In this document: in pieces, positions 9,782 to 60,924 of the stretch | Layout of the letters: every line of letters begins with the position of its first letter | Position numbering within the stretch: the stretch's first letter is position 1 | DNA from: Tribonema minus | Taxonomy: Eukaryota > Sar > Xanthophyceae > Tribonematales > Tribonemataceae | Assembly: GCA_017506865.1 (NCBI GenBank) | Contig: JAFCMP010000089.1 | Coordinates: 62,001-126,000 of the forward strand | Reading direction: 5' to 3' | DNA: 64,000 nt | Position numbers and translations under genes: made by a program | The notes under the pieces: generated by a model | Database searches by the model: none | The model's input: the letters and a program-made list of their open reading frames with translations, nothing else | What the model was told of the DNA's origin: nothing

Positions 9782-12700
9782 TCAGCGCTGCCGCTGCCGC
9801 GTGGTGATGTCGCGGCACGCAGCGCGCACGCACGCGCCGCCGCAGAAGTTGACGACGCAGCCCGTCGCGACGAAGTGCAGCAGCTGCAGCTGCGCGTCGC
9901 GGTCGTGGCGCACGCACAGGTGCACCCAGTTGAAGGGCGGCGGCAGGTCCGTCAGCGGCACGGTGGCGGCCTCGCGGCGGTAGTCGTACAGCGCCAGCAC
10001 GGCGTCGCCGCTGCACACCTGCGACTGCGCACAAGGGGGGGGGGGGGGGGGGGGCAAGAGTTCAGGCGGCGGGGAGGAGGGGATGACATCTGCAAGTACA
10101 GGCGTCGAGACACGAGCAGAGTGGCAGAGGAGTGTGGGGCGGTGTCTTGAATCTGGAAGTGCAAGCACCTGGCTCTCAGCGCATGACTGCCGAGACACGG
10201 ATGCACTATGCCATGTGCATTGGTGTTGGAACAAGGGAGGCGGCTGTGGGGCCGCATAGCGGTGAGCGGACGGCAGCCGCTGCTGCACAGCCGCTGCGCA
10301 GCGTACGCAGCACAACGCATCGGCGGGCAGATGACCGTCAGGAGACCGCTGGCGCGGCACGGCGGTGGTAACGTGGCAACATGAGAAGGGTTTTGTACAC
10401 GTAAGTATGATAGGATACATGCATACCTCTCCCTTCACTGCTGCTGGCATTGCGGGGATGTTGTAGAACTCGCCAACGAGCGGCGTCACGGCCACCGCGC
10501 CGAATGTGCGGGCCAGGATCTGGGACAGCAAGGCATGCAGCCAGCATAGGCGTGAGCGTCAGGAACAGGATAGGGGAACAAGGAACGCAATGTGGCATCA
10601 CTTTTGGGAGTCGGGGCCTGGCATGCGGGACAGGGGGGGGGGCACGGGCATTGACAGAGAGTCACGTCTTTTTCCAGTTGAAGTGTTTGCGAACGCTTTT
10701 GCGGTGCCGTTTGGCGTCTCTCCAAGCAACGCATAACGGGTGTGCCCTGCGCTTGCTGCTGCTGCACCCCCAGGGAGTGATGCCGCTGCCTGCACTCACG
10801 CCTTGCACAGGTACTTCTAAGAACATGCACAGCTGAACTCGTCGTACAACGCCGAGCATCGCATGGCTCAGCGACAACGCGGACTCAGCAGCCAGCGCCA
10901 CGTGGCACCAAAAAGCGGGCGAGCCGCCAGCTACGGCTCTGCACGAATGAGCATCTCCGGCCACCCCCCATCTGGTGACCTCACACCGCGCCGCCGCCGC
11001 CGCCGCCGCCGCCCTAACGACGCGCGCCACTGACGAGATCAGCAGAACGCCAGCAGCAATGCGACCGCGAGCGCCTCGTGTCAGCGCTCAGCGCACCTCA
11101 GCGCCGACCGTCGACACCTCCGCGTCGCCAAGCCCCGCCTGCATGAGCACGGGCACGCGCGCGCGCCGCCGTGCACCCCCCACGGCGCCCTCCGGCAGCT
11201 GAGCCGCCGTCATGGAGCCGCCCGTTGCGTGCAGGCCGCGGCGGCGCGTGCCGCCGGTGGGGTGTTCTTGGAAAGCCGTGGCAGCGTCGTATGCGAGCGC
11301 CGCCGCCGCCGCAGCGGCAGGGCCGTGCGCCGAGCGCCGCGCCGTGGGCGCGAGCGGCGGCACAGCGCGTTCATTGGCCGCAATGCCATCGCGCTGAGTT
11401 GGCATCGCGCGGCGATGCTTCGGCAGCTGCGCGTGCGAGTCCTCGCGCTGCCGCGGTTCTGCGTCCGTCGCGTGCTGATACTCACGGCCAGGCACAGATG
11501 AGCTCACCCAGTGCTCAGCAGCAGCCCAGGAGCCGTGCTGGCCCCGACCCGACCGCGCAGACACTGGCCGTTCGGGCGCCTGCCCGATCTGAGTGCGGTG
11601 CTGGCTAATCGAATCAGATGTCGGCTGCTGAAATTTGACCGGCAAGCGGTCCGGCCTCGTCAATGCCCGGTGACGGGGCTCGAGGCCAATCGGATCGCGA
11701 AGCTGATCCGTTTCGGCCCAATCAGGTGCCGCCCGCTGATCTCGTAATGTGTGCTGGTCCGGGCCTGGCTCATCTGCTGCCGTTAGCCGCGACACGCCGC
11801 CGACCGCATCGCCGTGCCGCCGCCGCTGCTGTAGCTGCTGCTGCTGCGGCGCGTCCGTCAGTGCGGCGGCAATCTGATGCTGCTGCTGCCGGTCTGGCGG
11901 CGCGGCTGCAAGCTGCCGCCGCTGCTGCTGCGGCGCGTCCATCGACGCGGCGGCGCGCTGCCGCTGCTGCTGCCGGTCTGGCGGCGCGGCGGCGAGCTGC
12001 CGCCGCTCCTGCCGCGGCGCGTCCACCGACGTGGCGGCGCGTTGCCGCTGCTGCCGCTGCTGCTGCTGCCGCTGCCGGTCTGGCGGCGCGGCGGCGAGCT
12101 GCCGCCGCTGCTGCCGCCGCGCGTCCACCGACGCGGCGGCGCGCTGCCAATGCTGCTGCTGCTGCCGCTGCCGCCACCGGTCCGGCGGCGCGGCGGCGGC
12201 CAGCCAGCCCGGCGCCTCCAGCGCATCGAACGCCGACTGTGCGACGGCCATGAAGAGGCGGAACGCGCGCGCGTCCGGCAGCGACGCGCGCAGCAGCGCG
12301 TGGTACGCGCGGAAGTCAAGCGAGCGCGAGAGCAGCATGGTGAAGGGCGCGCCGGGGACGCCCAGCGACGCGCGCTGCACGCGCGGCGAGAACGCTGCGG
12401 CGCGGGGGGGCAGAGGGTGTGCAGTGGGTGGGTGGGGAGGGGGGAGAGGGGGCGAATTTCTGCTAGGGCAGTATTCCGCATGCACAGGGAACGATGATTC
12501 AGGGGCGCAGAACTGACTGAGCAGACATTTGGGTGAGTTGGCGTGCATGGCTGCAGCACCAGAGCGTCAGCACGCAGCGGGGTGCTGAGAGATGCTGCGT
12601 GCGCGCGAGGAGCGTGGCGCGGGTCAAACAGGCGCAGGGATGCGTGCTCGAGGCAATGCGGCACGCGTGTATGGCGGGCGCAGTACTCATGTAGAGAGGG

Positions 12701-15700
12701 CCAGCCAGCGAGTGCGCTTAGGGTTAAGGCTACGTTGGCGTTGGCGCATCGCCGCCGGCACAGAGCACCGCTCGACTCTCGACCGACGCCACGCCGTCTG
12801 ACGCACCCGAGAAGCCGGCGCCGATGACGCCGCCCTGCGAGACGCCGTGGAAGACGCGCGGCGGCGGCGTGGCAGCGCTCAGCGCCTGCGCCTCTGGCGA
12901 CACAAAGTCGCGCCAGTGACGCTCCATCACGGCCATGACGGCGTCCATGTTGATGAAGGACTGCATGAGGTTGTCGACCATCGCCTCCATGATGGAGTCT
13001 GCGGAAGGGGGGGAGGGGGGGGGGGGGGGGGGGGGTAAGTACGGTGGGGGATGCTGCGCAGGGCGTGTGCGAGCGTGCCGCAGACGGTCCCGCAAGTGCA
13101 AAAAACGTGAATGCACGCGGCACACCGCACAACATACGATACCTGAAAGTATGATATTCATGTCATCGTACCATTGATGTTTACGCGAAGTCCGCCCCCT
13201 CACGCCGCAGCTATTCAAAATCTGCAGGGTCAGCGTCAGGTTGGGCGTCCCCTCACCATTACCCTCAAAGACCTACTGCTGCGTCCCTCGCCTGCATAGA
13301 TCGGTAATGTCTGCGCTGAGCTCTCGCTCAAGAGTACTCCTCCGGTGCTAATCCTAACCCTAGCCTTCTCACACACCCTGACCACCCCCTCGCACGGCCC
13401 TGACCTTAAACTCAAACCGCTCTCGCTCACGTCCCCTTCACGCTCAAGGCCACGGTCTGCAAAGGCTACGATCCGTGCAAGGTAAGGTGGCGCGCATGGC
13501 GCCACACATCAGCGCTCAGGCGCGAGGCACACCCACATGAGGGGTGGGGGCTGCACAGCTCACATCGACACAACTTCAACAGCCTGTGAGGAGTACCTAC
13601 ATGGGTCCGACAGCAGCCGAGCGCGCGCAAGGACTACCTACATAGCCACCCAAGTCCGAAAGCGGCGCGCTCCTGTCACGCCGCGCGCAGGCCAGGAGAG
13701 AGTCGCATCTACTCCATGACGGACGCCGCACAGCTCATGATGCAACTTCAAGAGGCCGCAGTACAGTACAGTACACACAGTACAGGGGTCCATCAGCGGC
13801 ACTTGCACCACGAAGGTAACGCTAGTTCTAACCTGAACCCGTGTGATTGATGCCTACCTGGATCGGACAGCAGTGCTCAGTACACTTCAAGTACAGTTCA
13901 CAGTACAGGCCCGTCAGCGGCACTTGCACCAAAAAAAGTCCCCCGAACCGGAACTGAACCCTTGTTGATGACACGTACCTGGGTCTGACAGCAGCGCTCG
14001 CGCCACGAAGATGAGGTCGAAGCGGCTCATGCCGCGCCAGTCGGTGGCCACGGTGAGCCAGCCGCCTTCGTCCGCTAGCTTGCCCAGGTAGCCATCCAGT
14101 AGCTCAGCCCTGAGGGGAAAATGGGGCCGAACTCATGAATTCGTGACAGTAGCGAGCGCGTGTACATGAACACACCGAGTATTTGAGTTGCGTGCATGGA
14201 GGACGAGTGGAGTTTCTCGTGAGTCGTTGTTTCACGCCGAGGGCGCAAAACAAGCCCGAGTGATCGGCAGGACCTTGTAGGGCCCGACGCGTCATCGCGG
14301 ACGGACGCCGTCAAGTGCTGCTCGTCGGCACGAGGCGCGACCCGCAAATACGCGCAAGGCGTACCGCACGCACCCATGCATACACACCGGCATAGGGCGC
14401 GGATGCTTCGGCGGGTCCGGCGCTGCGCGATGTGGCGGTGATGGCAAGCTTCCTGAGCACTGTACGCTGCCCACGCAAAGAGCACATGTGTCAGGGCTCC
14501 GCAGCAGTGCACATTCTCGCTGCCTACATGAGCGGATCAGGAACTTGCTCACAGGCGGGCGCTGGATACAGGTACTTCAACTACTGGAAGTGAGCATGAA
14601 GCGCCGCCCACCTGTCGCTGAAGAGGCCGCGATATTTCAAGTACATGAAGTACGCCAATAACCTGAAGTATAGACATACTTCAAGTACTTGAAGTATACA
14701 TCGCCGCCCACCTGTCGCCGAACAGGCCATGGCCGTACTGCACGACGGCCGTCACGCCCGCCGGCGCGGTGCTGTTGGGGGCCAGGCAGCGCGGAACGCG
14801 CACCACGAAGCCGACCTGCACGGGCGGCGACGGCGACGGCGGCGGCGAGCGCGCATGCATAGTTGACGGGGGGCGGGGGTAGATTAGGTGCTGTGAGATG
14901 GGAGTACGTGGGGGGTCAGAAAGCCTGCAGTGCAGAACGCTACAGTACAGTGCGAGATGCACAAGTGGCAGGCGGCACGCGCACCACGAAGCCGACCTGC
15001 GCGGGCGGCGGCGGCGGCGGCGGCGCATGCGCAGCAGATGGGGGGGGGTGGGTACTGAGACATCAGGGTATAGAAGTACAAAGGGGTACGAAAGTGCGCA
15101 GAGCACGAAGTGAGCTGCGCGGGCGGCGACGGTGGCGGGGCCGCATGCGCAGCAGACCGGGGGGCGGCGGTAGGTAATGAGTTATCAGGGTATACCAGGG
15201 GTACGAAAGTGCGCGGAGCGTTACACTGGACTGTGAGCGACACAGAAGATTGCGGCCACTCGCGTCATCTTCCCAGAGCAAAAGCAGGACTACCATGGCT
15301 GCACGCCACTACACTCTGTGTAAGCAGCATTGATCTATGCATGCGGCGGGCTCACAATTTCTCGTCACAATTCCGTCTTCCTTTGGACACATCGCGGGAG
15401 CAAATTAAGCCGGCGGCAAATTTTTTGGTCTAGTATCACGCCAAGGCGCCTAGACTCAGGTAGCGGTTGGCCCAGCCAGCCCGTGAACCCGCCCATCAGT
15501 ATTCCCACTTCAACCCCCGCACCGACCGAGCCAGGGTCACCACGCTCACCTCCAGAGCCTCTCCGCCAGGCCCGTGCCGCAGCATGTCGGCCGCGGCCTG
15601 CCGCATCGCTGTCGCATTGCCAATGTTGAGGTTGACGCTCCCGCCGTCCTTGCGGAGCGCCGCTCGCCGCAGGCCGCCCGCCCTGCTCCCAGCGTACGAG

Positions 15701-18700
15701 ACAGCAGGGAGACGTGTGGCAAGGGAGCGTCAACCTCAACACCGCCAATGAGACAGCTGAAAGACGGGAGTAGCTTGCTGGCAGGACAGGCAGGGGCGTC
15801 CGGGCGCGTGGCAGAAGCGACGGCGCCTGCGGCTTGTGGCAGGTAGCGGGGGTAGCCGGAACTTCATCGAACTTCATTCCGTGATGCCGTCCCTAACCCT
15901 GACACTAGCGCTTGCGGAACTCCCCGGCAGAAGACTAAATTGCACAGCGCAAGAGCACCGCTGCGCTGCGCATTGCCGATATCGAAGACAGGGGTACAAT
16001 CTGCGAGGTGCCTGACAGGGGATTGACGGGCGGGGAGAACAGGAGTTTTCTTCTTAGGCGACCGCAGCCCTGCAAGTATGTTGGCTACACTGAGCACTGC
16101 AATACCTGTGTGTGGGCGACACGTACGCGGGGACGGAGACCGTTCCCCAGAACGTTACGGGGACCACGCTCTGCGGATCCTCGTCCACCCTCACGATCTT
16201 GTACAGGGGCTCGACGGAAGCGGCGGCAGCGGCCTCAAAGCGCGCCGTCGCTTCCGCGCGCATGCCCTGCAGCATCCCCGTCTGAGGTGCGCACAGTGTC
16301 GATGGCGCAGCAGACCAGGGGGGGGGGACTGTTATGTTGGGGGGGGCGGGAAGCATTGACGTGTAAGCACAGCCACAGGACACCGTGAGTACAGTGGCGG
16401 CCGCCCGCTCACGTGCCCTGCGGGCTGCAGAAGCCCTCTTTTGTAGCGTGCTGGCGCAGGCAGACAACGCACCGGGTCGTTGATGTTCAGTGGGCGACTA
16501 ACATGCAACAGAGCTGCTGCGTTATGCACCCCGCAGATCGCTCACGGCGGGGGGGCGTTTCCCGGTGAGGGAGACATTCACTCAGTGCTTTTACGATCCA
16601 AGCACTGTGTCAGCACCTGCGCTTCCGCGGACGCCGTGGTGAAGTCCCACGCCAGCTGCAGCGCCCCGACGTCCACCCCCGCCGCCTCCAGCGCCGGCAG
16701 TATCTCCCCCACGAGACGCGCGCCGCTCTGCATCCCCTGTCCCCCCCCCTGCCCCCCCCTCTTCCCCTCCCCCGCCCCCTCCCCCCCCCCCGCCCCCGCC
16801 ATCCCCTCCGCCAGCAGCGCCTGGAACCCGCGCGAGGGCGGCAGCAGCGCACCGTCGGCCCCCGTGATGTTGAGCACCGCCACGATGTAGCGCTCGCCGT
16901 GCAGCAGGGCCTGCGCAGGCTGCAGCAGCGCGAGCGGGGCGCGCGCGTCCAGCGCGTCCAGCTCCGTGAAGTGCGCGACGCTGCGCAGCGGCGGCGGCGG
17001 CGGCGGCGGCGGTGGAGGCAGCGGCGGCGGCGGCGGGAGTGGCGGCGGCGGCGGCGGCGGCGGCGCGCAAGGCGTGGCCTTGTGAGTATTGCGGGTACGA
17101 TGTGGTTGTCGATGCGCGATGAGATGCTCTGTCACAAGGTACGTGTAGGTTCTGGTAGCGAGCTTGGTGTCGACCATCTGGGGTTGTTACGCCCAAAGTT
17201 AGAGCCATCAAGTGTAGAGTACAATGATTTGGGTGCGGCGACACGGCATCTCAGAAGGGGGGAGTTATTCTGTTAAAATGTGCACAAGACTCGTGACCCA
17301 GCGGGCAAGCCAGCCTCGTTGAGGCCGTTCTGTTGCAGAGTACAAGAAACCACCACTACACAACCTATTCACTGATAGATCAATGAGCTAGCGAAGTGAT
17401 GCACGTCTGTACACCAGTATGTACGCAGTGCTCACCGCTCGCCGGTCGCGGCGCGCACAAAGCACATCGTGGTAGGCATCAATCGCGACCGGCGCGCACA
17501 AAGCACATCGTGGTAGGCATCAATCGATACACATCAGGTACATAGGTAACAAATGCAGTGCTCACAACTTGCCGGTCGCGGCGTACACGATGCACATTGC
17601 GGTAGGTAGGTGCCGCTCAGTACACAGTAGGTACATACATAGCAACCACGACGCACGAGGCACGCCCGCCACAGGTAAGTACCACTCACTACACATGACG
17701 TACACAACAGGCACCCACATGCAGCGCTCACCGCTCGCCGGTCGCGGCGCGCACGAGGCACGTCGTGCGGCACTCGAGGCTGGCGGCGATGTTGCGCGGC
17801 GTCGGCAGCCCCAAGCCGCCCATGCCGTCCAGGTAGAAGAGTGCCGCGCCGAGCGTGGAGAAGCCGTCCATGGCGTTGAGGCGCGCTGCACGGTGCACAG
17901 CGCAGGCAGACCGTGCGCAGTCAGGGGTGTGGCGGGGTGACACGCCGCCGGCGTCTGACGCGTCGGATCGTACTGCACCAGGAAGCCCACATTTGGTGCT
18001 GACTCCAGCGGTAACCCCTGCCTACGTGTGTAACGTGAAGCCTCATGGCATACACGTGTAGCATGCACTGTGCGTCGCGGTTGATCTGGGCCGTCCACGT
18101 ATTGCCAGCAGCGGCAACAAGTGCTGCAGGCCATCTGTGTTGACAGCGCACCCTCCGCACTACCGGACGTTGGCACCACGACATTGAACTTGGACATCAG
18201 GGTAACCAGCAGCATTGGGCCCATGCTCGACCAGCAATGCATACCCATCATACTCATGGGTCGCCCAGGTGAGCTGCGCGTCCTGTTTCCTCCGTCAGAC
18301 TGCGTCGTCGCCAGCGTCTGACGAACCGTGCCAGCCTCGCCGCCAATCGCGCCTAGACGCGAGAGCAACAATGCCTGGAGGCGCGAGGAGACAAATTTCG
18401 CAACGCGCAGAGGATCGCACGCGTGCACGCGCGCACCCCCCGACGGGCGCTGACGGGCGCCATTCGTCTCAAGATCCCTCAGCGCTGCCGCGTGCGAGTT
18501 CAAACTTGGTGGTTTTACAGCATGCAAAACTATGGTGCATCTCAAGCTTGACGTTGACCACGAGGGCTTCTTCACGCATTGAGCAAAAACCAACATAACG
18601 TGCACAACGAACTGATCTTACGACGCGCGAAAAGCGCCCGCGCGCGCGCACCTGCGGACACGCGGCGGCCGCGCTGCGTCGCGGGCAGCGCGCCGCGCGG

Positions 18701-24275: not shown

Positions 24276-26920
24276 CGGCGGCGGCGCGTGGCCGTTCCCC
24301 GAGGCGGCGGCGCTGCGCGTGTTCGGCGACGCGTGCGCGGGCTGCGCGGCGCTGCACCGCGCGGGCTGGGCGCACAGGGACATGAAGCCGCTGAACGTGC
24401 TCATCGACGAGCGCGGCGGCGGCGTCGTCATGGACGTCGGCTCCGCGGCGCCGTGCCGCCGCGAGGTGCGCCGCCGCCGCCGCGTTGTCGGGCTTTTGCC
24501 GCCACTCAAGTAGAGCGATGGTCAGCGCTCAGACTCTATGTCGTTAGACGGTGCAACACATCAGTTCTGGGCACAGGAGATGTTGTGATGGATGTGGGCT
24601 CCGCGGCGCCCGTGCCGCCGCGAGGTGCGCCGCTGCCGCCGCAGTGTTGGGCTCGTGCCGCCACTCAGAGCGACGGTTTGCACTCAGACTCTGTGTTGTT
24701 AAAGGGCACAACACATCAGTTCTGGGCACGGGAGATGTCGTGATGGACGTGGGCGCCGCGGCGATGTGCTGCCGTGAGGATTGTTACCGCCGCCGCTGCC
24801 GCCACTGCAGCTGGCGCGAAGTCGGCGGGCGCGTGCTGCGCAGAGAGAGGGGTCGCAGTAAGGTCTTGTGTCAGGGTTAGGGTTAGGGTTAGGGTAGCCC
24901 TCACCCTAAGGCATCGAGCATAACACTACAGTGAGTCTAGGTATGCGCAGTGGTCACAAAGACATGGGCGCTCCCCATTGTTGGTGGCAATGGCGGCGGT
25001 GGCGGCGGCAATGGCAGCATAGTAAACTTGCGCTCCGTGGACTCTTTGTGCTCGAATAAGCCTTACTCATTGTGCGTGGCCGGTCATCGACTCGCTGCCA
25101 GGGCTGCCAACCTGCCTGCGGACGATGCCAGCCTTGATGCGCAGCACTCACCGCATAGATCAAGAAGTGATGGACGTCTCCCACATCTCTCCCTGTATTA
25201 CACTTTGAAGAAGTCAGGAGCGCTCCGCGCCCCGCCCGCGGTCCAGCGCGATGACTTCCGTCGCAGGTCACCAGCCGCCACGACGACGACGCGCGACAGC
25301 ATACACGCGCAATAAACACCTGTCGCTGTTTATAGTTGTTTGCGAGCGCTCATCGCTGCGCCTGCGGTCGCCAGAACCGCTGCTGCATGCCCGCCCCTCG
25401 CGCGTGCCCCCCCCCCCCTCCCCACGCCGCGAGCCGCCGCGATGACGCTGCCACTGGCGGCTGGCAAATTCTGCAGCACGTGCAAATGACGCCTATCCGC
25501 TTCCCGCTTTCGAGCACCCCTCGCAGCGCCCGCGGTCAGCATCGTAACCGCTGCGCGATCGTGTCCCTAACCCTCACCCTCGCGACGCGCGTGTGGCAGG
25601 TCACGAGACAGGACGCGCTGCTGCTGGAGGTCGGCGCAGGCACACAGTCACCTCGTGCGTGCAAACGCCCAAGCGTTACCCTAGATAGCCCTAACCCTAG
25701 CCCTCTCTCGCCGTGGACACACGCGTCCTCCGCCGCGCCGCGGCACGTAGCCTGACTGCTGCTGCACGCTGCGCGATCGTCTTCGCCCCTCGCACCGCGC
25801 GCGCGCGTGCGGCAGGTCACGAGCCGCCAGGACGCGCTGCTGCTGGAGGACGAGGCCAACGTGCACTGCAGCGTATATACATGCGTGATGATCGCCTTCT
25901 CGGATGTATGTTTGCCAGCGCAGCGCGCCGCGCCGTTTGTCATTTGCGCGCCCCCGCCCCCCCCGTTCCGCAGGTTACGAGCCGCCAGGACGCACCGCTG
26001 CAGAAGACGTCGCAGGCGCGCATCAGTCGCCTTGTGCGTGCAATCGCATAACCCGACCCCGAACCCTCACCCTCTCTTGTGCAATCGCCTAACCCTAACC
26101 TCTCTCGCCTTTGACACGCACGTTCCCCGCCGCGCCCGGGGCGTGCAGCGCAGGTCACGAGCCGCCAGGACGCGCTGCTGCTGGAGGACGAGGCCAACGT
26201 GCACTGCAGCGCATATACACGCGTGACGGTCGTCTTTCTCTGATGTATGTTTGCACACGCCGCGCGCCGCGCCCGCGCTCAACTGTTGCGCATGTTTCGT
26301 CCACCCCCCTTCCCCCCCCCGTTCCGCAGGTCACGAGCCGGCAGGACGCGCTGCTGCTGGAGGACGAGGCCAACGTGCACTGCAGCGCGCCGTACCGCCC
26401 GCCGGAGCTCATGCACATCAACCCCGGCATGGTCCTCGACGAGCGCGTCGACGTGTGGGCGCTGGTGAGCAGCGCTCAGCACTCGCTTTCACTTTCAGAC
26501 CACTGCTGTTCACTGGCAATGTTACATGCAGACCCGGAGGCATGTGTAGTCCGAGGCGTGGTCATCGACGAGCGCATTGTCGCGCGGGTGCTGGCGAGGC
26601 GCCGCGTGTACTCACGCGCTCGCAGTCCTCAGCAACGGATGCAAACTGGGATCAGGCACTCGTCTGTGCATGTGCAAACTGGGATCAGGCACTCGTCTGT
26701 GCATGTGAGAAGTTCCGCGGGTTTTGCGCGCGACTGGCACGGTGCCAGGCGCTGTGATGCGCTTCCGAATCACCACAGTGTGTGCTTCAAGCGCGTGGAC
26801 GCGCACGCGTGGCGCGAGTCCGCTTGCGCGCACGAGCTGTGCTCGGCGCCCATTAAGCAGACGCAATCACCAAGCGCGACTGCGTCTGCTTGTGCAGTTG
26901 GGTTAAAGTTAGGGTTAGGG

Positions 26921-26956
<36 letters not shown>

Positions 26957-29556: not shown

Positions 29557-29751
29557 TCACCGAGCCAAGCACCTGCACCCGGGCACAGCGCACTCCTGGC
29601 TGAAGTCTAAAGGCATGTTGATGAGCACTGCCATGTGAGCACTGCCATGAGTGGGTACCATGCGCGAGGCGCCGTGGATCGCCTTCCCCTCGCAGCCGTC
29701 GGTGCCGCACCGGGTCTCTGCGGCGCGCGCCCGCGCAAGGAGGTCGATCAC
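29557..29751 (-). repeat. Second arm of the inverted, protein-like duplication
   Basis: The minus-strand frame contains CGTDGCEGKAIHGASRMVPT, then HGSAHMAVLINMPLDF and CAVPGCRCLA. It matches the 28.8-29.0 kb arm in the opposite orientation. The Cys and His spacing could bind a metal, but that is speculation. It may be a fragment of a multi-exon gene. Confidence 0.55.
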
Positions 29752-41534: not shown

Positions 41535-41990
41535 ACGATGAGTGGCCTGTTGAGCATGCTGGCCGCCGTGTAGTCAGGCGCCTGGCGCACGCGGCCAAGT
41601 CCACGGCTTGGCGCGCAGCGCAGCGCGAGGACGTTGGCAGCTGTGGCTGCGTTGCCCAGCAGCGGCGGCCGCAGCAGCACCAGCAGCAGCGGCGGTGGCA
41701 GCGGCAGAAGCAGTGGCGGCGGCAGCAGCGGCGGCGGCGGCAGCGGCGGCGGCGCCAGACGTGGCGGCGGCGGCAGCAGCAGCGGCAGTGGCAGCAGAAG
41801 CAGCATCGGATGCAGCTGAAGCAGCAGCAGCGGCAGAGGCCGCAGCGGCGGCGTGCCATCGGTCACTTACGCGCTGCGTCCACAGTGCAGCTCCCTCCTC
41901 TATCAGCGCTCAGATGCATGGCCTCTCGAACGCCCCCGTCGCCGCCCAGTCCGGCGCCGCGAGCACGCGCCCACAACTGATCACACAGCA
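41535..41990 (-). repeat. Echoes of the 3' coding end of the isoaspartyl dipeptidase gene
   Basis: The real gene ends ATGMFERPLV-stop at 42092. Downstream, 41905-41990 encodes a diverged copy (RVLAAPDWAATGAFERP) and 41535-41640 an even more diverged one (AASMLNRPLIV). Nucleotide matches include gagcacgcgccc and gcgcagcgcgagg in both the real copy and the first echo. Poly-Ala (CAG/GCG) repeats fill the spaces. Confidence 0.8.
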
Positions 41991-42091
41991 CAGCGCGAGG
42001 CCGACAGCGGCTGCGAGTGTGAATCCGTCAGCAGCAGCAGCAGCAGCAGCAGCAGCACCAGCAGCGGCGGCAGCGGCACTGCATATCCCTC

Positions 42092-45000: not shown

Positions 45001-47357
45001 GCCTTGGAAGGCATCGGAAGCATCGAGCGTGTGAGGCAGGCGGAAAGTGCGAGTTGAACTTCGAGCAAATTTACGTGAAGCGTCATCACTTGAAGTTACG
45101 GGCAGTAGCAGCAGCGGCTCGCTTGCTCCCCACGCCGATGACCTCCTCCGCCGCCGTGTCGTCGCGCCACGCGCAGCCGTAGCAATCGCAGTCACTACAG
45201 AAGAACCTGAGCAGCACCGCCTCCGTGCCCGAGATCCCATTGACGGTCCCACTTCAAGTTCACAGCGGCGCAAGCGTGTGCGGAGCGGCGGCGCCTCACC
45301 TCCCGCACGCCAATCACCATCTCCATCGCCACGACATTGCGACGCGCGCGGCCACAGCACTCGAAGCAAACCACATGTACCTGCAGCGCCACCCTCCACC
45401 CCCCCCCCCATATATTATACTTCAAGTATAATGTATGAAGTATGAGCTTACTTCAAGTTGCAAGCGAGCGGGGCGCGTGGACGCGCGGAACAGCGGCGGC
45501 GCCTCACCTCCCCCACGCCGATCACCTCCTCCACCGCCATGACGTCGCGCCGCGCGCAGCCCGTGAGCGTCGGCGGCGGCACCTCCATCGCTGCGACTAC
45601 TTCAATGTTTTCTTTTGAAGTAGAAAGCGGACTGGTGGCTCACCTCCCCCACGCCGATGACCTCCTCCACCGCCATGACGTCGCGCCGCGCGCAGCCCGT
45701 GAGCGTCGGCGGCGGCACGGCGTACGCGCCCGTCCACATGTACGCGCTCAGCCCCTCCTCGCGCAGCGCCTTGACCTTGGCCAGCAGCGCCAGCGGCGCG
45801 CGCGCAACGGCGTCCGTGCCGAGCACGCCCACGCACGTCGTGATGCCCGCCTCCACGATCTCCGAGAGCTGCGCCTCGGGCGTGCGGCTGCGGAAGCCCG
45901 CCTCGCCGCCGCCGCCCGCGAGGTGCCTGCCGGGCGGAGGGGGAGGAGGGGGGGGCATAAGAATGAATAACACCTTCACACCTGTTTCCTGGGATCAGTC
46001 TAGGTGCTGGCCGCTTGCTCGCCACTGGTGGCCCTTGCACCACTGCCCCCCCCCCCCCCGGGTGCCCCTACCCCCTCCCCCCCCCTTCATCCCTCTCCTG
46101 TGGCAACAGGTATGCAAAGCGCCCCCCCACCTCCCCATCAGCGGGCGGTGAGCGGGGGAGGGCGAGGGTGGTCAGAACGTCACGACGGCCGCCTGCGGCG
46201 GATGCTGCAGCTCGTGCAGTAGGCCAAGTACTCTGAATGCTGCAAGACATATGATGACATTGCAAGGCAGCAGCGGAAGCTGTGACACTGGCGGCCGTCA
46301 CCAGCCGGGAGCGCCAGGTGAGGCTGGGCGGTCCTGTGCCGCCGCATGGCGGCCGTGTTTGCCTACATGCCACGCGCTTGGAGTGTGAGCAGCAATGGTT
46401 GGCCCTGCATGCAGTGCATGGCATGCGCGTACGCGCTCACGCGGATTTTATGCCTTTGTGCAGGCAATGCGTACATGGCAAACGGACGCACCTGCAGATT
46501 AGATCTGTTTGAAGTTGCCATACTGCACGCAGTAATGTGAAATCATGGACGCCAACTAGCGCTGCGCCTGACGCTGGCATGGCAAGCCGCCACATGGCGA
46601 TCATCACGTCATCACCGCTCGTGAATGTTCGTGAGGTGCTCATTGATGCAAGAGAGAGAGAGCTCAGGTAGCCCAGCAGTAAACGTGGCCTATTGACCGC
46701 GCAAGTGATGCCGGTCCACGTATCGTGGCGGATTGTGGCTGCTTACCAGCATGTGAGGTAGCTCAAACATTGCTTCAGGCAAAGTTCACTGCTGTCACTG
46801 AGTGGATTTCTCTACTTAAAGCTCATTTGAAATTCCCTGCGTCTGAATCCAATGACTGGGTTGGCACCATCAAAGGAGTTCCAACGTGTCGCTTGCTTGC
46901 GACTGCTTGGAGCACTTCTCGGAACTGGCATCAAAATTTAAAGGCGCAGGATCCGTTTTGAGTGCGCTCTTTGACAGTGAGGGCAGCTGCACGGTCCTCG
47001 GGTGCCAGTAGAAAGCAGCAAGCCGACCAGTGTAGGCAGCATGATCTGCAGCACTCCTCTAGGCAACAGCAACTCTCTCATTCGGCATTTTCAAAAGGCT
47101 CACATGTGTATGTCCACGAAGCCAGGCACGATGATCAAGCCAGATACATCCAGCACGCTGACAGACGGACCAGTCAAGGTGCTGCGGGTGCTGGCATCTG
47201 CGGATATCTCTATGATCTTGGTGCCCGCCACAACCACCTCCGCTCCTTCGCCGAGAGGCGCTCGCCCAGGCTCACAGTGCACTTCAACCGCTCCCGTCAG
47301 GCGTATTACTGGCTCAAACTCAGGCTGCATCCTTCGGGTGCCGCGGATTATAACCAT
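42092..47357 (-). CDS. iadA: Isoaspartyl dipeptidase (beta-aspartyl peptidase, amidohydrolase family)
   Basis: Exons (minus): 47357-47104, 45926-45644, 44859-44764, 43569-43417, 42940-42779, 42385-42092. All phases agree; 413 residues, against about 390 in bacteria. It should hydrolyse isoaspartyl dipeptides formed by protein ageing, using a two-metal centre. Order: VVAGTKIIEISADA, VPGFVDIHMHLAGGGGEAGF (metal-binding H-x-H, split by intron 1), SRTPEAQLSEIVEAGITTCV, GVLGTD, VKALREEGLSAYMWTGAYAV, VEEVIGVGEVAISDHRSS (conserved Glu and SDHRSS), VMYCHMGSG (metal His), ITNVIPTHMSRSP (metal His), SSDAYGSQPEFDAQ (catalytic Asp), and a C-terminal GDADLLALDPADGLALRYVM. All expected metal ligands are present, so it is probably active. 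No targeting peptide was seen. The family is mostly bacterial, so transfer is possible, but the introns show long residence. Confidence 0.92.
43165..43215 (-). repeat. Donor-side echo of dipeptidase exon 4
   Basis: The plus strand ctcttcggtcagctgtgggc near 43171 copies the exon end at 43417 onward (ctcttcgatcagctgcgggc). The predicted peptide SWSPQLTEE mirrors SRSPQLIEE. The GTGAG donor is lost in the copy. Confidence 0.85.
43300..43376. repeat. Degenerate telomere-like CCCTAA block in an intron
   Basis: Repeated acctaaccctaacc and accctagacc variants lie within dipeptidase intron 4 between the real exon 4 donor and its echo. They resemble the CCCTAA blocks of the kinase introns. Confidence 0.7.
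43600..43835 (-). repeat. Acceptor-side echoes of dipeptidase exon 4
   Basis: The exon start (plus strand catgtggcagtacatcactc, then cagcctg at 43569) is repeated near 43682-43712 and 43801-43830. Shorter copies with ccacgtggcagt lie near 43631 and 43751. In translation the echoes read GVMYCHMGSG or MYCHVGAG before diverging. They lie upstream of the real exon. Confidence 0.9.
45128..45590 (-). repeat. Three donor-side echoes of dipeptidase exon 2
   Basis: Exon 2 ends at 45644 (plus strand ctcacctcccccacgccgat). Copies lie at 45504-45590 (nearly identical over more than 80 bases, donor intact), 45296-45352 (diverged, donor intact) and 45128-45180 (donor lost). Similarity falls with distance from the real exon. 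The first two echoes also share upstream agcggcggcgc sequence. Confidence 0.93.
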
Positions 47358-47596: not shown

Positions 47597-49119
47597 ATGT
47601 CTTTTGAGTCCCTGAGCCACCTGCTCGGAGGGGAGGACCCTGACCTCACGCTGGTGGTCACGGGCGTCGTCCTGAGCATCTCGGTGGTGGCTCTGTGCTG
47701 GCTGTTCCCTTGCCTGCCAGATTCGAGGAGCTCCAAGAAGGACGAACCCTACTACGGCACCGAGGCAGCGGAGGTCACCAGCCTCAGAGTCTACCCCATC
47801 AAGTCCTGCGCGGGCCATGAAGTAGATTGCTGGGAGCTGACAAAGACGGGGCTGAAATACGACAGAAACTGGGTCGTGGTGGGCGCGGACGGGCGCTTCC
47901 GCTCCCAGCGACGGCTCCCCAAAATGGCAGTTATCACCCCCTCCCTGCCAACCTCCGACACCGACCCCCTAATCATTAAGGCCCCGGGCATGCCAGAGCT
48001 CGTGGTGCCCGCACGGCGGCGCGGCGATCCAGGCGCGAAGGAGGTCCCCGTCGGTGTCTGGGGCGACCAGTGCACGGGGATAGACCAGGGGGAGGAGACC
48101 GCGACATGGCTCAGCAGGTGCCTCGGCGAGCCGGGCTTGCGGCTGCTGCGGTACGACGACGCGTTCACGCGCGGCACGGACCCCGCATACGGCCGCGGCT
48201 TCTTCACGGCGTACTCGGACGGCTTCCCGCTGCTGCTGGCGAGCGAGGAGTCCCTGGAGGACCTGAACGCGCGCCTCGCGCAGCCCATAGGCATGGAGCG
48301 CTTCCGCCCAAACGTCGTCGTGGAGGGGATGGGCGCGTGGGCGGAGGACGCGTGGACCAAGGTCGCCGTCGGCGACGTCGTCATGCGCGTCGTCAAACCG
48401 TGCGACCGGTGTCAGGTGCCGACCATCGATCAGGTGCGCGTCTGGTGGCACGTTTTGCGGCTGACGATGCGCTTGCGGGCGCGCTCGTCGTTGCGCGGAA
48501 TGCATGTAGCTGGCTGGCATTATGGCGCATGCGCGCTGGGCGCGGCGCTTCTTTATTGAGAGGCTGAGCACTGTCGATTGTTGAGCGTCGCTGCGAAGCG
48601 CCTGCCCGCGCATGCGCACATGTCGGTGTCAGCGTGCTCAGGCCAGCAGCATCCCCTGTTTCACGCCACGTGTGGAATGGAGTGGTGCACAACTTCAAGT
48701 CTATTGCCGGCCACTGGCACGGCTGCTGCCGCTGAGCCAGCATCAACATTCTCGATTGAGGACCTGCTGCTGCATTCTAACATGCATATGCGAAGACCTG
48801 CTGCTGTAACTACCGCCTGTGCTGCCGCCGCCGCTGCCGCCGCCGCTGACGCTGCCACTGCTACCGGCGCCGCAACCCGCAGAGCACGGGTACCAAGACG
48901 GGCGCGGAGCCGACGGCGACGCTGCGCGCGTTCCGCACTGGCGCGCACCTCGGCATGGCCGACGAAAAGGTCGCGTCCGCCGTCTTCTTCGGCCAGAACG
49001 TGCTGCACGAGGGGGGGCGCGGCGCGCTGCGCGTGGGCGACCGCGTGGAGGTGCTGCGCGTGCGGGTGCGGCAGCCGCCGCCGCCCAAGGCCGCCGCCGC
49101 CGCCGCCAAGCAGGAGTGA
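47597..49119 (+). CDS. mARC-type molybdenum amidoxime-reducing protein (MOSC domain)
   Basis: Exons 47597-48433 and 48883-49119, phase 0, 357 residues. It starts MSFESLSHLLGGEDPD, then one membrane helix (LVVTGVVLSISVVALCWLFP), the usual N-terminal anchor. The MOSC N-terminal barrel begins VTSLRVYPIKSCAGHEVDCW and contains GLKYDRNWVVVG and RFRSQRRLPKMAVI. The MOSC core has FRPNVVVEG, and KPCDRCQVPTIDQ includes the cysteine expected to bind molybdenum. Exon 2 has PTATLRAFRTG, VFFGQNVLHEGG and LRVGDRVEVLRV. These proteins take Mo cofactor and electrons from cytochrome b5 to reduce N-hydroxylated compounds; in green algae they are also linked to nitric oxide formation from nitrite. Length, anchor and ligand are all normal. 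Only one intron, and no echoes at its borders were noticed. Confidence 0.93.
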
Positions 49120-51250
49120 GCGGCGGCGACGCCGGCGACGCAGCTGCGCATGCTGCCGCCGCCTCGCGGCCAACCGGCGTGGATGCCGCCGAGCGGGGGT
49201 AAACAGCAACAGCGCACGGACTGCGGCGTGTGCTGCTGCCGCCCAGCCGGCGCGCGCGTGCGGCTGCGGAGGTGCGAAGGGACCGCGCGGCGCCGTGCGT
49301 CAGGGCTCAGCCGCCGCCGCCGCCCGCAGTTCGCCTGAGCATAAATCGCCCCTGTGCGCGGTGCACTGCTGATGAGTGGACGGAGTGCGTTGCGTGCTCG
49401 CTGGACGCGCCCATCTGCGCGCGCAGCGCTCAGAGGAAGAGAAGGGGCGGGGCGGTGGACTGCTGGAGCGATAGCGTGGTTGGAGGGGGCTAGTGGTTCG
49501 GGGGCATTCGCGCACTGTGTGCGGGAGAGTGGCAGCTCCTGTGTAATATAGCAAAGGGGCATGCTTGGAAGTGTGTGTTGTGCTCGAAGGTTGTGTCAAC
49601 CTGAAGGAAGGTGCAATCAGGTTTGTGTCCGCCGCGAACGCAGCTCGCGGCGTGACAACTTGAAGTTGGCGCTGACATGGGCACAGCGACATCAGCATGA
49701 TTGCTTGTGAACTTCCCCAGCACGAACGGCATTCCCTCGTTATTCGTGCCGGTGTGCTCTCCAAAGCACAACTGCAATACGCAGCCTACGGTATGGAGCG
49801 TTAAATCCCGTTTTTAACACCATGAATTCCATCATTGCTGCCATAATGCTACCATGTGGTACATTGAAATACATGTTGGCGGTGTCATTTTGAACTGCTC
49901 GCCCATGCGCCTTCACTTCCAAGTGTTGGCAATACACATCATGTGGATTGTGGTAGCAAGCTGATTTGCCAATCTGGGCATTTTCGCTCTTCTACCCGAG
50001 AATGGATAAAATAGTATACTTCTATGTCTACAAGCGCACAAGCGAGTGACGTACATCAGTATGCTACGGACAGAGCAGATGTAGTGTGGGCTGAAGCAGA
50101 TGGCAGGCCAACAGATGCAGTGGCATTGAGGCATTGGGGGCATGGTGATGAGCAAGTTGATGAACAGCGCGAATCGACGCATGCAGAACAGCAAATCTGC
50201 TGATTCATGACGCAGATGCAGTGGTGAATCACCAATTTTGCCATGCGAGGCATGGGGCACATAGTCCAGCATATTGGAGCAGGTGCGCGCATACGCAGCG
50301 TGCAATGCAAGGCGGCAAGACCATCAGCAGGAACAATCATCACGGCGCACGCAGAGAGCAGGGGCTTTGTGAATTTTGCTGCGTGAACAGTGAGTGTGAT
50401 ATTATCATAAATGATGTGGTCAGTGTGAAGAATTGTGTCATTTGCTGGAGGGCAGTGCAGGTCCCAAGTAAAAAGTGTGTTCAAAACGCGCAGCCATGGC
50501 GCAACGAAGAGTGACGGCAGCTCCAGCATGTCGTTGCCAATGACAGAATATGTCAGGGACTCAAATGCACGGCGACCATTGTCACCGAGACCCGCTCTGA
50601 TGCTGTGATGGCGCAGTGAATGCCAGCATTGACATGCGCATGTACTTACAGAGTTCGCTCGTATACACAAATTTATGCATAGGCCGCACAGCTGCAGGGG
50701 ACCTGCAGCTGCTGACTGCATATGTAGTAGAGGGAGTGGTGTGCATCTCGAAAATTCAACGTGCACTACCTGCTGACAGAAACAGCCAAACACCAGCCTT
50801 TGTTGCTGATGCAGCATATGTGTTGCCAGCACGCAAGTGCAGAGTTCAGGACCGGTCGCGACGGCCCTATCGGTGACGGTCGCCCTGATGACAGCAGGTG
50901 TCACGCAATGCTATACGGTATGCATGCATCAGGGAACCATCCCCCTGATGGCTGCAGTCACGGCTGTGAAGTGCGGGGGCTGTTTGCCTTTCCCGCGAAT
51001 GCAGATGACCCGCCGCTTGTGCCGCCGCTGCAGTTTTGGCCGCCGCAAGTGACAGGCGGCCATGCCGCCAACGGAATATTCAAGCGCGGCGCACCGCGCG
51101 TTTGCCGCCGCCGCTTCTGCCGACACGCGTGCTGGCCAGTGACGAACCATGCACTACTGACTGACACAGCGTGAGCGTGTGCTGTAATGGGCTGTGCTTA
51201 TATATAGGAGCGGCAACGCGCAAGTGTTGCACGCAGAGTCCCGCGGCCCA
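49120..51250. other. Intergenic; one long unexplained open frame
   Basis: GC-rich just after mARC, then dropping to roughly even composition from about 49500. The longest frame is on the minus strand at 50056-50904 (282 codons). It contains GRRAFESLTYSVIGNDMLEL and a Cys-rich C-terminal half, with no family recognised. At lower GC such a long open frame is less likely by chance, but there is no other support for it. Confidence 0.3.
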
Positions 51251-52397: not shown

Positions 52398-52429
<32 letters not shown>

Positions 52430-56488: not shown

Positions 56489-59400
56489 ATGGCCTCGCTT
56501 GTGGAGCCTGCCAATTCACCAGCAGTGCGAAAGCTGGCTACACTCACCTACCGTTTTCCGCTGCCTGCGACAAAGGTTGGTTGACAAAAGCTACGCTGGC
56601 ATTACCTCTCGCATGTGTGCTGTTTCATGTCAGGTCGCGGTGCTCGTACTCATTATGCGTGTCCTGCTGTCTTGGTGTTGGTGGACAAAAATCGCACTCA
56701 TAAAGGTGTGCCGTATGTCTAGCCGTTTCAGGTGTCTGATAGAAAAAAGCTACCTTGAACTGCTGCTGCTGTTTTCTCAGCTCATCAGCTTCCATGCATC
56801 ATTCGAGTCTGGCAACCTCGGCGATCCCGTGACAGCCAAGGCAATCGAGCATATGGACCAGGCCAGGGAGGACATGGCAAGAGAGCTGGCTTCCGGCAAC
56901 CCCAACTACCAAAACGTCGTGGCAGGCGCACGCCGCTACGTGCCGCTGATTGCACAGACTCTATACTCATTGGAGCAGGTGAAGGCAATGCGCATGCTCA
57001 ACTTGAAGTTTGCTGTACATGGCCCAACTGGTGATTGCAGCCGACTGCAACTAGGCAGTCTAGCAACTGCAAGTGCGTACCATCATCACTTTTGGCAGGC
57101 CTCTCGAGCCGCAGCCTTTTGAGGAGGCGACTGACTGACGTGCCTGTGCATTGCATTGCGCTGACTGCTGTTGGTGTACACGTGTAATAGTCATTTACGC
57201 GCTGAGTCCCTTATCCGCCTTGTGCTGATGCAAGCGTAAGCAACAGCGAATCGCTTAACAAAACTTCAACATGCCACACTTGTGATGTGCTCCGCTATTC
57301 GCACAGGCAACGGACCCCGTGTACTTGGAGGCGCCGCTGCGGTTTGACTGGGCATCAGGATTAGGGATCAATCCAAGGGTCACTTGGATCTCAAATCAGG
57401 TGCGGCCCCGCGCCATTCGGCTCAGTCGCATGAGGTCGATCTTGCAAGTTTTTTTGGTGGGGTGCTACTGCAGTCTTGTTGCGAGCAAGCAGTATGAGTA
57501 CGCGGTGCCACAGCAGCTCTGCCCTTCTGCGCGCTGAGCATTGCTGTAAGTCCACTCTGCAGAAGTTGATGACGCGCACGGTGTCCGGCGCCGCAGTCGC
57601 CCTGCTTGGCAGCAGCAGCAGCAGCAGCAGCGCTCGTCCGAGCAAGCAGCCCCCTGCATCAGTTACATCACCACTAGACGCGCTGAAGCGCGCCGCAACT
57701 GGACGGTGCACTCTGCAACGCCCCGTTGCTGTCCTACAGCGTGGCGGCGTCGCGGTGTGGCACGTATAGCAAAGGGTGCGCGCAGTTGACGGCCCCACGA
57801 CGAGCGCTGCTGCGGCGGCGTCACTCTCAAGCACGGGCAGCCCCGCAGCTTTAGCGTCCCCAGCGTGATTCACCCCGCTGCTCAGGTCCTCCACGCTCGT
57901 GCCCTCAAATCCAGACCAAGCTGCAACCGGTCTTGTCAGTCTGGCGCGGAGCATCGCCAGCTACGCCTGTGCGCTGTCTGCAGCCGTTTGTCAAATGCTG
58001 CGACGGTGCAGCAGCTCAGCTGTTGTCTTAGCTGGAATGGCACAGCTGCTCAGAGTGTGCTGCACCGCCGTGTGTGACATCCACATGAGCGACGTCTCGG
58101 GTCTTCCGCCTGCTGCCCGGTGTGCATGCCCTAGTGTAGGGCACGGGCCCACGCGCGATGCGCTGGGGGATGCGACCTGTGCCAGGGGCTCCACTGATGC
58201 TGCGCTACTGCTACTAGGAAGCGGACATGGAAACTGCAACTTGAACTTCCGCTGTGCGCCGGCGGCGTCTATGGCGCTCGCGTCGCCGGCGCCGGCGCCA
58301 AGTTGCCGGTGGCTGCAGCGTGCACCTCGTACGTCAAGCCGAGAAGGCAGACAGTATCATCTGCCCTATGTATGCTTTTCACTTCCAGCAGAACGCAATG
58401 AGCAACTGGCTTCTGCAAGGGGTCCGCAAGTGCAAAGGTACTCCACCAAGCGTCGCGCCGCGCCCCGGCAACTTCATCTTCAACTTCAGCTCTGTGCCCC
58501 CTCCGACTCCTACTGCAGGCAGTGGTGTGGGACAAGTGCATGGCGCTCATCTCGCAGGCGCTCGCGCACGCGGACAGCGTGTACAACATGGTGGGCGCAG
58601 CCGCCGGCGGCGACGATGCCGTTTACGCCGCCGCTGGTCGCGAGCTGCGCACCGCTGCGGGCGTGCTGGCGCACACGGCGAGCGAGGAGCTGCCGCGGTG
58701 CGTGCCTGCGTGCGAGCGAGCGTCTGTGGCGCTAGTACCTTAGGTCACGCAGTATAAACCCCCCCCGTTTTAGCACGCTGTGAGGCCCGTTTTCGGAAGA
58801 CGGGGGGTCTTATACAACGTACCCCCCTTCTTGCACGTGCGTGTGAGGGGCTGCGGTAGCATATATCGCATGATATATACTGCTGCACACAGCTACCGCA
58901 AGCAGCAGGCCACAAGTGAACGTTCTGCAGCTCCTACCCTAGCACGCCTGGTTCAAACGCGGGCGTGCTGGCGCACACGGCGAACGAGGAGCTGCCGCGG
59001 TGCGTGCGTGCGCGCGCGCGCATTGTCTCGTCTGTGTCATGAGCAGTCGCTCTGCAGGTAGCTGCTGCTGTCGGCAGCTCGGCGACGTCTGAACGCATGA
59101 CCAACGAGGGGCTGCTCCAGTGCGCTCTTCCGCGTCATGTGTCTGCGTGGTGTGTAACAGCGCGTGCTGCTGCTGCCGCTTGTAACGCACAGGGACATGA
59201 CCTCGCCGCATGCACTTGTCCTCACTCCGAGTAGCCGCAGCGCATGTTGTTGCACCGCTCCGAGCGTGCGTGTTGTCTGGCGGTGTGCGGTGGCGCGGCA
59301 GCGCTGGTGCGGAGCGCTGCTGTGGCGGCGTCCCAGCGCTCAGCTCCTGTGGCGCCCTGCCGCTGCTGTGCACCGCCGGCGACCAGCTGCTGTGGTGGCT

Positions 59401-60924
59401 GACGCAGCGCGGACAAGCGGCGCTGGCCGTGCTTCCGCCGCAGCCACAACCTTTTTTCATGGCTACTACCAAAATATGGATTGCAGATGGTCACCCATCG
59501 CCGGTACCTGAACGGCGACTCGCCCAGCCCCGTAAACGCATGTACCTCACATGGAATGGGGGGATTCATTTATGAATCTCCGCGTGCATTCTTCCCGCGT
59601 CAGGTGGGTGGGGGAGACAGCGAAGGGCGAGCGGCCGCCGGAGGCCGTCCCCGGCGTGTGCGAGGCGCTGTCGACGCTGTGCCTCGCGCAGGCGCAGCAG
59701 ATGGCGCTCGGCAAGGCGCTGGCGGGCGGCAAGACGCCGCCGACGCTGCTGGCCAAGCTGTGCGGCGGCGTCGCGGACCAGATGGACGCCGCGCTGTCGA
59801 CGCTGCGCGACAAGGTGAAGTAGCGATTATTTGCACTTCTTGAAGTATTATTACTTGAAGTTGTTGCATCAGCCAAGCTGCGCGGCGGCGGCGCGGACCA
59901 GATGAGCGCCGCGCTGTCGACGCTGCGTAACAAGGTGAAGTAGTGATAATGTGTTCTGCGAGTGGAAGTGAACAACTAAGTAGTTGTGATGCGTCGCTGC
60001 ACATAGTTCAAGAGGGTCATCGGCGATGGAGGGGATTCGGATGGACACTGTGCTGTCGATGCTCGTGAGACCAGTTGATGTAGTGATTCTATGGACTCTT
60101 GCAGCATTGTAACTGAGGTGCTGTCCCGGGCTTTCCTCGTGTGCACGTAATTCAAGAGCTTTACCAGCGCTGGGAGGGAGAGGATCAGATTGACGTCACG
60201 CTGCCGACGCTCCTCCACTTTACGTTGTTCAAGTGCATTCTTCAAGTGATGACGCGAATGACGTGGATGCCGTGCTGTCCAGGCTGTGACACGGTCATGT
60301 GGTAATCTGGTCATGTTAGTATTACAACTTCACTCGACCGCTTCGTCAAGAACTTCAAGGCCCGCTGTACCGCTGGTTGCTGGCGCTACGCTTCGCTTCT
60401 ATTCACATGCTCCCCCCCCCACCCCCCCCCCCCCCCCCGCGCCCCGCGCATCGCAGGCCGGCGCCGCCTACGCGAAGCTCGCCAAGCCGCTGCTCGCGCA
60501 CGCGGCCTTCCAGGCGGCGCTGCAGCGCGCGCTCGCGCACCTCTTCCTCGCCTCGCACGCGTGGGCGCGCGAGGCGTACGGCGCTGCCATCGCGCACCAG
60601 CGGCGCGGCGCGGCGCTGCTGGCGCGCCTGCCGCCGCCGCCGGACGCACCGCCGCCGGAGCTGGCGGCGCTGCGCGCGGAGGCCGCGGCGGCGCTCGCGT
60701 CGTACGAGCGCGACAACGGCGCGATATACTACGATCCCGTGCCCGGGGAGCCGGCCGCGCCGCCAGACGGCGTCGTCATGATGAAGCCGGAGCCGTACAC
60801 AGTGCCGCCGCTGGTGGCGCTGCGCTTCCGGCCGCCGCGCACAGGGGGGGAGCCGGAGGACGTCGACGTGGCACTCGCGGCGGAGGCGGAGGCGAAGCTC
60901 AGCACAGCCAACGGCAAGAGCTAG
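56489..60924 (+). CDS. BRO1-domain protein, plant endosomal-targeting type
   Basis: Supported exons: 56489-56575 (start MASLVEPANSPAVRKLATLT), 56781-56978, 57307-57399, 58519-58697, 59604-59814, 60457-60924 (stop TAG). All phases agree; 411 residues, near the size of plant BRO1-like proteins. Order: YRFPLPATK, SGNLGDPVTAKAIEHMDQAR, YVPLIAQTLYSLEQ, LRFDWASGL, AAGVLAHTASEELPR, GERPPEAVPG, ALSTLCLAQAQQMALGKALA, TLLAKLCGG, HLFLASHAWAREAYGAAIAH, then YERDNGAIYYDPVP and the closing MMKPEPYTVPP. BRO1 domains form a helical boomerang that binds ESCRT-III on endosomes. A helix that relatives have between exons 3 and 4 (rich in F-E-x-G-x-x-L) was not found, so one exon in 57400-58518 may be missing; the gap is phase 0 on both sides. 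The first methionine is plausible but not proven. Confidence 0.83.
58955..59010 (+). repeat. Donor-side echo of BRO1 exon 4
   Basis: Positions 58959-58999 (gggcgtgctggcgcacacgg, then cgaacgaggagctgccgcg) copy the exon end at 58659-58697 almost exactly, including the CG/GTGCGT donor. Confidence 0.92.
59873..60295 (+). repeat. Donor-side echoes of BRO1 exon 5
   Basis: The exon end 59751-59814 is copied at 59873-59934 (ggaccagatgagcgccgcgc, then aacaag/gtgaag, donor intact). Weaker copies are suggested near 60035-60075 (gatggacactgtgctgtcga), 60185-60215 and 60255-60295 (gtggatgccgtgctgtccag). Each later copy is more diverged. Confidence 0.8.

Follow-up and report, generated by a model that had tools for sequence, protein, structure and literature searches.

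Same-strand echoes of exon borders in introns of Tribonema minus, probably relics of short direct duplications

The 64-kb window considered here comes from the genome of Tribonema minus, a yellow-green (xanthophyte) alga. It (C89:62001-126000, the whole stretch analyzed, from an assembly of 158 Mb in 554 contigs) contains genes for a MOSC-domain protein, GTP cyclohydrolase II, a kinase, an isoaspartyl dipeptidase and a BRO1 protein, all supported by homology. A sixth gene we take to be hydrolase-like on the basis of motifs; the initial annotation named it an alpha/beta hydrolase, a name we do not retain since a Pfam search found no families in it. The protein encoded at 47597-48433 and a MOSC-domain protein of T. 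minus are 100% identical, and the annotated T. minus protein of the kinase gene is P0121. Our subject is a feature of introns in these genes: same-strand copies of the adjoining exon end and its splice site, lying within the intron itself. We call these copies 'echoes'—donor echoes if they repeat the end of the preceding exon, acceptor echoes if they repeat the start of the next.

When the window is compared with itself by BLAST at an E-value of 1e-6, 26 off-diagonal pairs are found, 25 of them local direct repeats and one a local inverted repeat, and no pairs are spaced by 4 kb or more. Same-strand border copies had been claimed for the hydrolase-like, kinase, dipeptidase and BRO1 genes, and each of the four does contain them. 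The sole inverted pair, 28794-29093 with 29463-29780, is 69% identical over 321 nucleotides (nt). For the kinase, dipeptidase, MOSC and BRO1 genes, up to 60 nt of each exon edge plus 20 nt of intron were scored against the gene's own intron and, as a control, in 300 comparisons per border against introns of other genes. Some borders were set by tblastn ends and others by predicted exons (all of them predicted in BRO1). Nine of the 26 borders reached an own-intron score of 43 or more, against maxima of 40 in the control and 30 in reverse complement; for two of the nine, 43405 and 43572 in the dipeptidase gene, the exon ends are approximate, and a GTACA simple repeat adjoins 43572. Two further borders with p < 0.01 but a score of just 23 were left uncounted.

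A larger sample of 294 kb comprised the window and 23 stretches of 10 kb taken from other contigs. Its exons were predicted by a home-made gene finder seeded with approximate codon usage from Chlamydomonas; before borders were counted, predicted exons were discarded if they scored no more than 12 or measured less than about 45 nt. Some of the 'exons' retained are echoes themselves (45508-45582, and probably L026 2415-2510 and L021 2825-2905), and the border counts are therefore slightly inflated. At a score of at least 40, 21 of 170 borders match their own intron, compared with a rate of 0.75% against other introns, and none of the 170 matches in reverse complement at score 40. Counted differently, 28 of 212 predicted borders have a copy on the intron side; with the annotation displaced along the stretches the count is 9.0 +/- 2.9, and none of 300 such shifts reached 28. 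Exon-side copies show no such excess (8 observed, 9.2 expected from shifted annotation), and the placement first reported, with donor echoes downstream and acceptor echoes upstream of the real exon, is borne out. Under a stricter definition, echoes accompany 23 of the 212 borders, one to four at each; most borders have none.

What is copied is the border region rather than the exon. At score 40, the adjacent intron is matched by 22 of 170 borders, 84 of 1540 one-sided stretches from intron interiors, and 3 of 600 exon stretches situated 80 nt or more from a border; at score 80, the corresponding figures are 11/170, 15/1540 and 0/600. Exon-interior stretches also score zero of 600 at score 50, and zero of 170 in the homology set, in which 9 of 26 borders match. 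The copied sequence thus adjoins the intron instead of being drawn from exons as a whole, a pattern that speaks against messenger RNA (mRNA) as the source and for short duplications across the border. To say that introns are 'built from' such copies, as was proposed, is too strong: local direct repeats occupy 10,544 of 78,885 predicted intron bases (13.4%), versus 11,149 of 176,403 unannotated bases (6.3%).

The kinase gene illustrates both kinds of echo (Table 1). Its donor border at 24465 has echoes at 24582-24640 and 24737-24796, with 81% identity over 227 nt at a spacing of 158. Farther along, an acceptor is present in five copies, the first exon base of which falls at 25600, 25816, 25974, 26154 and, for the real exon, 26330. 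Annotated P0121 has one copy of this exon, and tblastn with the relatives P0122 and P0125 gives a full exon match at 26327-26464 only, with shorter matches at E2 and E4 (P0122) or at E4 (P0125). Similarity had been described as falling with distance, and this is not what we find: from near to far, identity to the real exon is 98, 72, 98 and 81% in the kinase gene, over 54-58 aligned nt, and 99, 81 and 92% in the dipeptidase gene. Despite having identical sequences for 58 exon nt, E2 and E4 have flanks that are only 69% (upstream) and 80% (downstream) alike. A perfect tandem duplication of a 33-nt unit, a young intron-interior event, occupies 26640-26707 inside a predicted kinase intron. Telomere-like AGGGTT, GGGTTA or ACCCTA arrays occur within gene regions at 24873-24895, 26900-26961 and 43317-43380.

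In the dipeptidase gene, echo 1 is followed by a spacer of 61 nt, the GTGAG included, that matched only itself in the genome. Over the first 16 nt past the donor, echo 1 agrees with the older echo 2 rather than with the real intron. This pattern would be expected had echo 1 once been the border, with the present border arising later as the new copy. In form—a flank copy plus a spacer—this echo is similar to that of BRO1. There, a flank of 72-78 nt, starting 41 exon nt before the donor, is duplicated on either side of a fragment of a dispersed repeat that is present in at least 40 places including the window copy, on contigs C1 and C2 among others. All 12 of the 12 other copies aligned (L029-L040) share a constant left end and extend past the point at which the window copy stops; flanking direct repeats were not clear around any of these 12, the right ends of which were not determined. 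The BRO1 echo is a flank duplicated when the repeat fragment inserted. In the hydrolase-like gene, 14785-14844 pairs with 14967-15025 (92%), and 14985-15104 with 15104-15219 (78%). A perfect tandem duplication with a 41-nt unit, at 17449-17526 inside a predicted intron of this gene, is another young intron-interior event.

Table 1. Exon borders and their copies in the window
Feature	Positions	Strand	Remarks
Tandem pair, hydrolase-like gene	13759..13999	-	spacing 119; enters predicted exon 13979-14109 by 21 nt
Three copies near predicted acceptor side of hydrolase-like exon	14785..15219	-	exon end uncertain
Donor echoes of predicted hydrolase-like exon 17755-17885	17425..17767	-	17425-17471 with 17721-17767, 91%
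Kinase exon end, donor border 24465	24424..24465	+	own-intron score 89, control maximum 40; two echoes of it lie downstream
Tandem donor echoes of kinase border 24465	24582..24803	+	unit about 155-158 nt, 2.3 copies; spacer homology z 14.9
Kinase acceptor echo E1, worn	25596..25633	+	
Kinase acceptor echo E2	25806..25873	+	57/58 exon sites same as real exon
Kinase acceptor echo E3, worn	25970..26001	+	
Kinase acceptor echo E4	26149..26212	+	57/58 sites same as real exon; identical to E2 over 58
Real kinase exon (E5), copy present in P0121	26330..26464	+	tblastn P0121, P0122, P0125; own-intron score 123
Weak donor echo of kinase border 26464	26545..26590	+	own-intron score 43, control maximum 28; place read by eye
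Worn copy of last homologous dipeptidase exon part 42102-42192	41920..42010	-	80% over 91 nt; also matched by P0131 tblastn; splice border uncertain
Dipeptidase donor echo 3	45128..45178	-	92% to 45647-45697
Dipeptidase donor echo 2, ends 45300	45284..45353	-	shares 16 intron-side nt with echo 1, not with real border
Dipeptidase donor echo 1, ends 45508	45503..45582	-	74/75 exon bases plus GTGAG
Dipeptidase exon, donor border 45644	45644..45926	-	tblastn P0131, P0133; own-intron score 125
BRO1 border flank, left copy of duplicated flank	58657..58728	+	41 exon nt to donor 58697 plus intron start; own-intron score 102
Dispersed-repeat fragment between both flank copies	58736..58961	+	at least 39 other places, 78-93% identity among matches listed
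BRO1 donor echo, right copy of duplicated flank	58959..59036	+	
BRO1 donor border 59814	59752..59833	+	echoes 59872-59953 (89%), 60040-60114 (75%); own-intron score 113

Elsewhere in the window, the EukProt transcript protein P0002 agrees with the MOSC exon as far as 48232 and from there on matches 49311-49603, rather than the annotated second exon (region 47597-49603); this reflects either another transcript form or a strain difference. Repeat arrays occur at 4980-5314 and 11828-12198, with units of 54 nt and of about 84-102 nt, the second of them in a predicted exon. tRNA and Rfam searches gave no match.

Are the copies functional? Exons and their nearest echoes differ 34, 26 and 54 times at codon positions 1, 2 and 3 (356, 355 and 356 sites), and over 55 pairs the counts are 70, 62 and 123. 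Free change at the first two positions implies that the copies are under no coding constraint, and the higher count at position 3 is that expected from synonymous substitutions in the real exon. These counts do not support functional duplicated exons as an account of the echoes. Taking the best echo for each border, 19 of 23 keep their GT or AG, a figure biased upward by the fact that most alignments reach the border. The earlier statement that the units often carry one of these dinucleotides holds with that reservation, and echoes of this kind are potential decoy splice sites.

Local repetition in the sample is overwhelmingly direct: pairs spaced by less than 1.5 kb number 180 direct versus 12 inverted. 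Among the direct pairs, 23 are near-exact tandem duplications (units of 61-375 nt), 26 form overlapping arrays and the remaining 131 are spaced, pairs within one family not being independent. BLAST misses very short spacings near the self diagonal; the smallest among our pairs is 61, and the shorter tandem repeats at 17449-17526 and 26640-26707 lie outside the pair counts. The longest young duplication in the sample, L017:2515-3265, is a 375-nt tandem with 98% identity that touches predicted exons. If a border and its nearest echo arose by tandem duplication, the spacer between them must resemble the sequence that follows the echo; with the first 25 nt set aside, 10 of 21 testable cases show this resemblance (p <= 0.02). 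Simulations of uniform tandem duplication, neutral decay and selection on the exon, run at several indel rates and ages, give comparable values when indels are frequent, spacer homology appearing in 63% of cases at 8-13% exon divergence and in 40% at 13-25%, compared with 9/16 observed over the two ranges together. With few indels the simulated values are 83% and 75%.

The echoes are probably, in our view, the relics of short direct duplications that straddled exon borders. Direct duplications, mostly of about 60-250 nt, would arise along the genome, most plausibly through fill-in and rejoining of breaks with staggered ends, the copies being separated by filler DNA in some cases and not in others. 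Duplication across a donor would create the order exon, donor, intron start, exon end, donor, intron, in which the first donor alone preserves the mRNA; duplication across an acceptor would create the mirror image. The extra copy would thus be tolerated downstream of a donor and upstream of an acceptor, and with splicing via the outermost site the mRNA would be unchanged, while the inner copy would remain in the intron, free to decay. Since selection would hold the exon copy constant, border pairs should stay recognizable for longer than pairs within introns. We infer that the echoes leave splicing unchanged. The caveat in the initial annotation—that one-sidedness merely reflects which arrangements leave the mRNA intact—is supported, and a directional mechanism would be unneeded. 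The analysis supports the duplication scheme in several ways: the copies share one orientation and are contiguous with the border, roughly half of the testable cases have a tandem structure, the copies decay free of coding constraint, and in one case a dispersed-repeat fragment lies between them.

Several observations weigh against this account in its simplest form. Both of the nearest echoes that have less than 3% exon divergence lack spacer homology, which simulation expects in 87% of such cases. Of the 38 repeat families present in 87 introns, 20 reach a border and 18 lie wholly inside an intron, whereas border families make up 27-28% overall in simulations. The simulated fraction rises with age, through 24 and 36 to 55%, the last only for old copies (0.15-0.20 changes per site), and an old cohort would fit the number of border families, not their high similarity. 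Of the 25 pairs that are at least 88% identical over 40 nt, 19 (about 15 families by count) are both spaced and exon-touching; the simulated equivalents are 2/216, 8/139 and, at age 0.05-0.10, 12/88. At age 0.10-0.15 the simulated proportion is 6/10, yet just 10 of 900 events remain that similar. Border copies, in short, are commoner, more alike and more often spaced than those of simulated uniform duplication. The kinase acceptor copies form a mosaic—E2 and E4 near-perfect, E1 and E3 worn—that a single tandem history does not give, and that conversion from the exon would. Finally, 20 kb taken from outside the sample (L004 and L005, on contigs C1 and C2) contained few predicted exons and no border echoes. 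These two contigs had been set aside as presumably not algal, probably wrongly, since both contain the dispersed repeat of the BRO1 spacer. Uniform tandem duplication with neutral decay, taken alone, accounts for the orientation, the contiguity, the codon positions and the spacer homology at middle divergence; it fails on the surplus of similar, spaced border pairs, and we reject it in that pure form. Border hotspots, repeated correction, or intron turnover faster than simulated are possible remedies.

Correction of copies by a master is one such addition to the duplication scheme, and is possible though not probable: the selected exon would overwrite, by gene conversion, the exon part of copies in the intron. 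The kinase gene speaks for it, E2 and E4 being the same over 58 exon nt and one site away from the real exon, between flanks only 69% and 80% alike and beside the worn E1 and E3; so does the predominance of exon-bearing pairs (19/25) among those that are similar but spaced. In many pairs, however, similarity over the first intron nucleotides past the border is close to that of the exon part, with no general drop at the junction, and the dipeptidase and BRO1 cases are accounted for by one recent duplication plus filler. A bolder version, in which duplications are seeded preferentially at borders and the exon part of their copies is then repeatedly corrected by the exon, would have introns growing from their edges inward and holding a stock of near-perfect decoys; we regard it as somewhat unlikely. 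That breaks or template switches simply prefer exon-intron borders, and so start duplications there more than inside introns, is unlikely too. The higher rates of own-intron matching at borders than in intron interiors (22/170 and 84/1540 at score 40, 11/170 and 15/1540 at score 80) agree with it, as do the 28 intron-side copies where 9.0 were expected, but part of the excess follows in simulations from conservation of the exon copy, the sample is small and its exons mostly predicted, and perfect short tandem repeats do exist in intron interiors, at 17449-17526 and 26640-26707, below the spacing of the BLAST pairs.

It is very unlikely that mobile elements or introners with long flank duplications made most of the echoes. 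The BRO1 spacer, a dispersed-repeat fragment between two flank copies, looks like such a case, but 12 other copies of that repeat, their right ends not determined, have no clear flanking repeat, and the echo introns of the dipeptidase, kinase and hydrolase-like genes, and of L014 and L010, had no match beyond themselves or their own locus. An introner origin for these five introns is accordingly rejected. That the echoes are in use, as alternative exons or as decoy splice sites under selection, we consider highly improbable: many still score like the real site for splicing, GT or AG survives in 19 of the 23 best echoes, and E2 and E4 are almost flawless copies, but the procedure that finds echoes biases splice-site retention, codon positions 1 and 2 of the copies are free to change, and the annotated kinase has a single copy. 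Assembly artefact is scarcely credible, the copies differing from one another, having flanks of their own, and occurring at many levels of divergence on many contigs. The suggestion that border amplification is a genome-wide habit fares unevenly. Recurrent local copying of borders beyond single loci stands; a habit specific to borders is not upheld, because spacer homology is of the tandem type in 10 of 21 cases, families internal to introns are common (18/38), and the conserved exon copy inflates the border excess. A surplus at borders remains unexplained.

The ingredients have precedents. In a potato RdRp gene, a tandem duplication across an intron-exon boundary holds the end of the intron and the start of the next exon, splice signals included, as Tribonema echoes do (PMC4974935); that one event gave rise to a new spliced intron, whereas in Tribonema many borders are involved and the copies are apparently silent within existing introns. 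Tandem duplication has been put forward as a route to introns (PMC3443670), and there too short internal gene duplications carry splice sites; the Tribonema echo differs in lying inside an existing intron, with no new intron between the copies. Intron gain of the AGGT type calls for an echo of the upstream exon end that abuts the acceptor, and in the dipeptidase and BRO1 genes, the only ones checked, it is rejected: the dipeptidase echoes end at 45508 and 45300 and the next exon starts at 44862, and the BRO1 echo occupies 58959-59036 and the next exon starts at 59604. Small tandem duplications result when staggered breaks are repaired by fill-in (PMC8355091), and they resemble the echoes in being short direct duplications of a break flank. 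Those came from experimental breaks with 43-nt overhangs in mammalian cells, while the Tribonema units are mostly longer and would share the mechanism by inference. Introner elements (PMC9860276) likewise place repeated sequence in introns, and one Tribonema spacer is a dispersed repeat, but the echoes are local to each gene rather than common to several. Small tandem duplications, intron gain by duplication and one boundary duplication are thus known; recurrent silent border copies as a genome-wide trait were not found described in the literature searched, most subscription papers lying outside the search.

Duplications that straddle borders and are hidden by splicing offer a measurable route by which introns lengthen and gain decoy splice sites. 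Conservation of the exon copy makes every echo pair a fossil that can be dated, and a single genome can reveal both how often small duplications occur and what their spectrum is. Should the border surplus prove to be genome-wide, it would point to border-prone breakage, or to correction templated by the exon.

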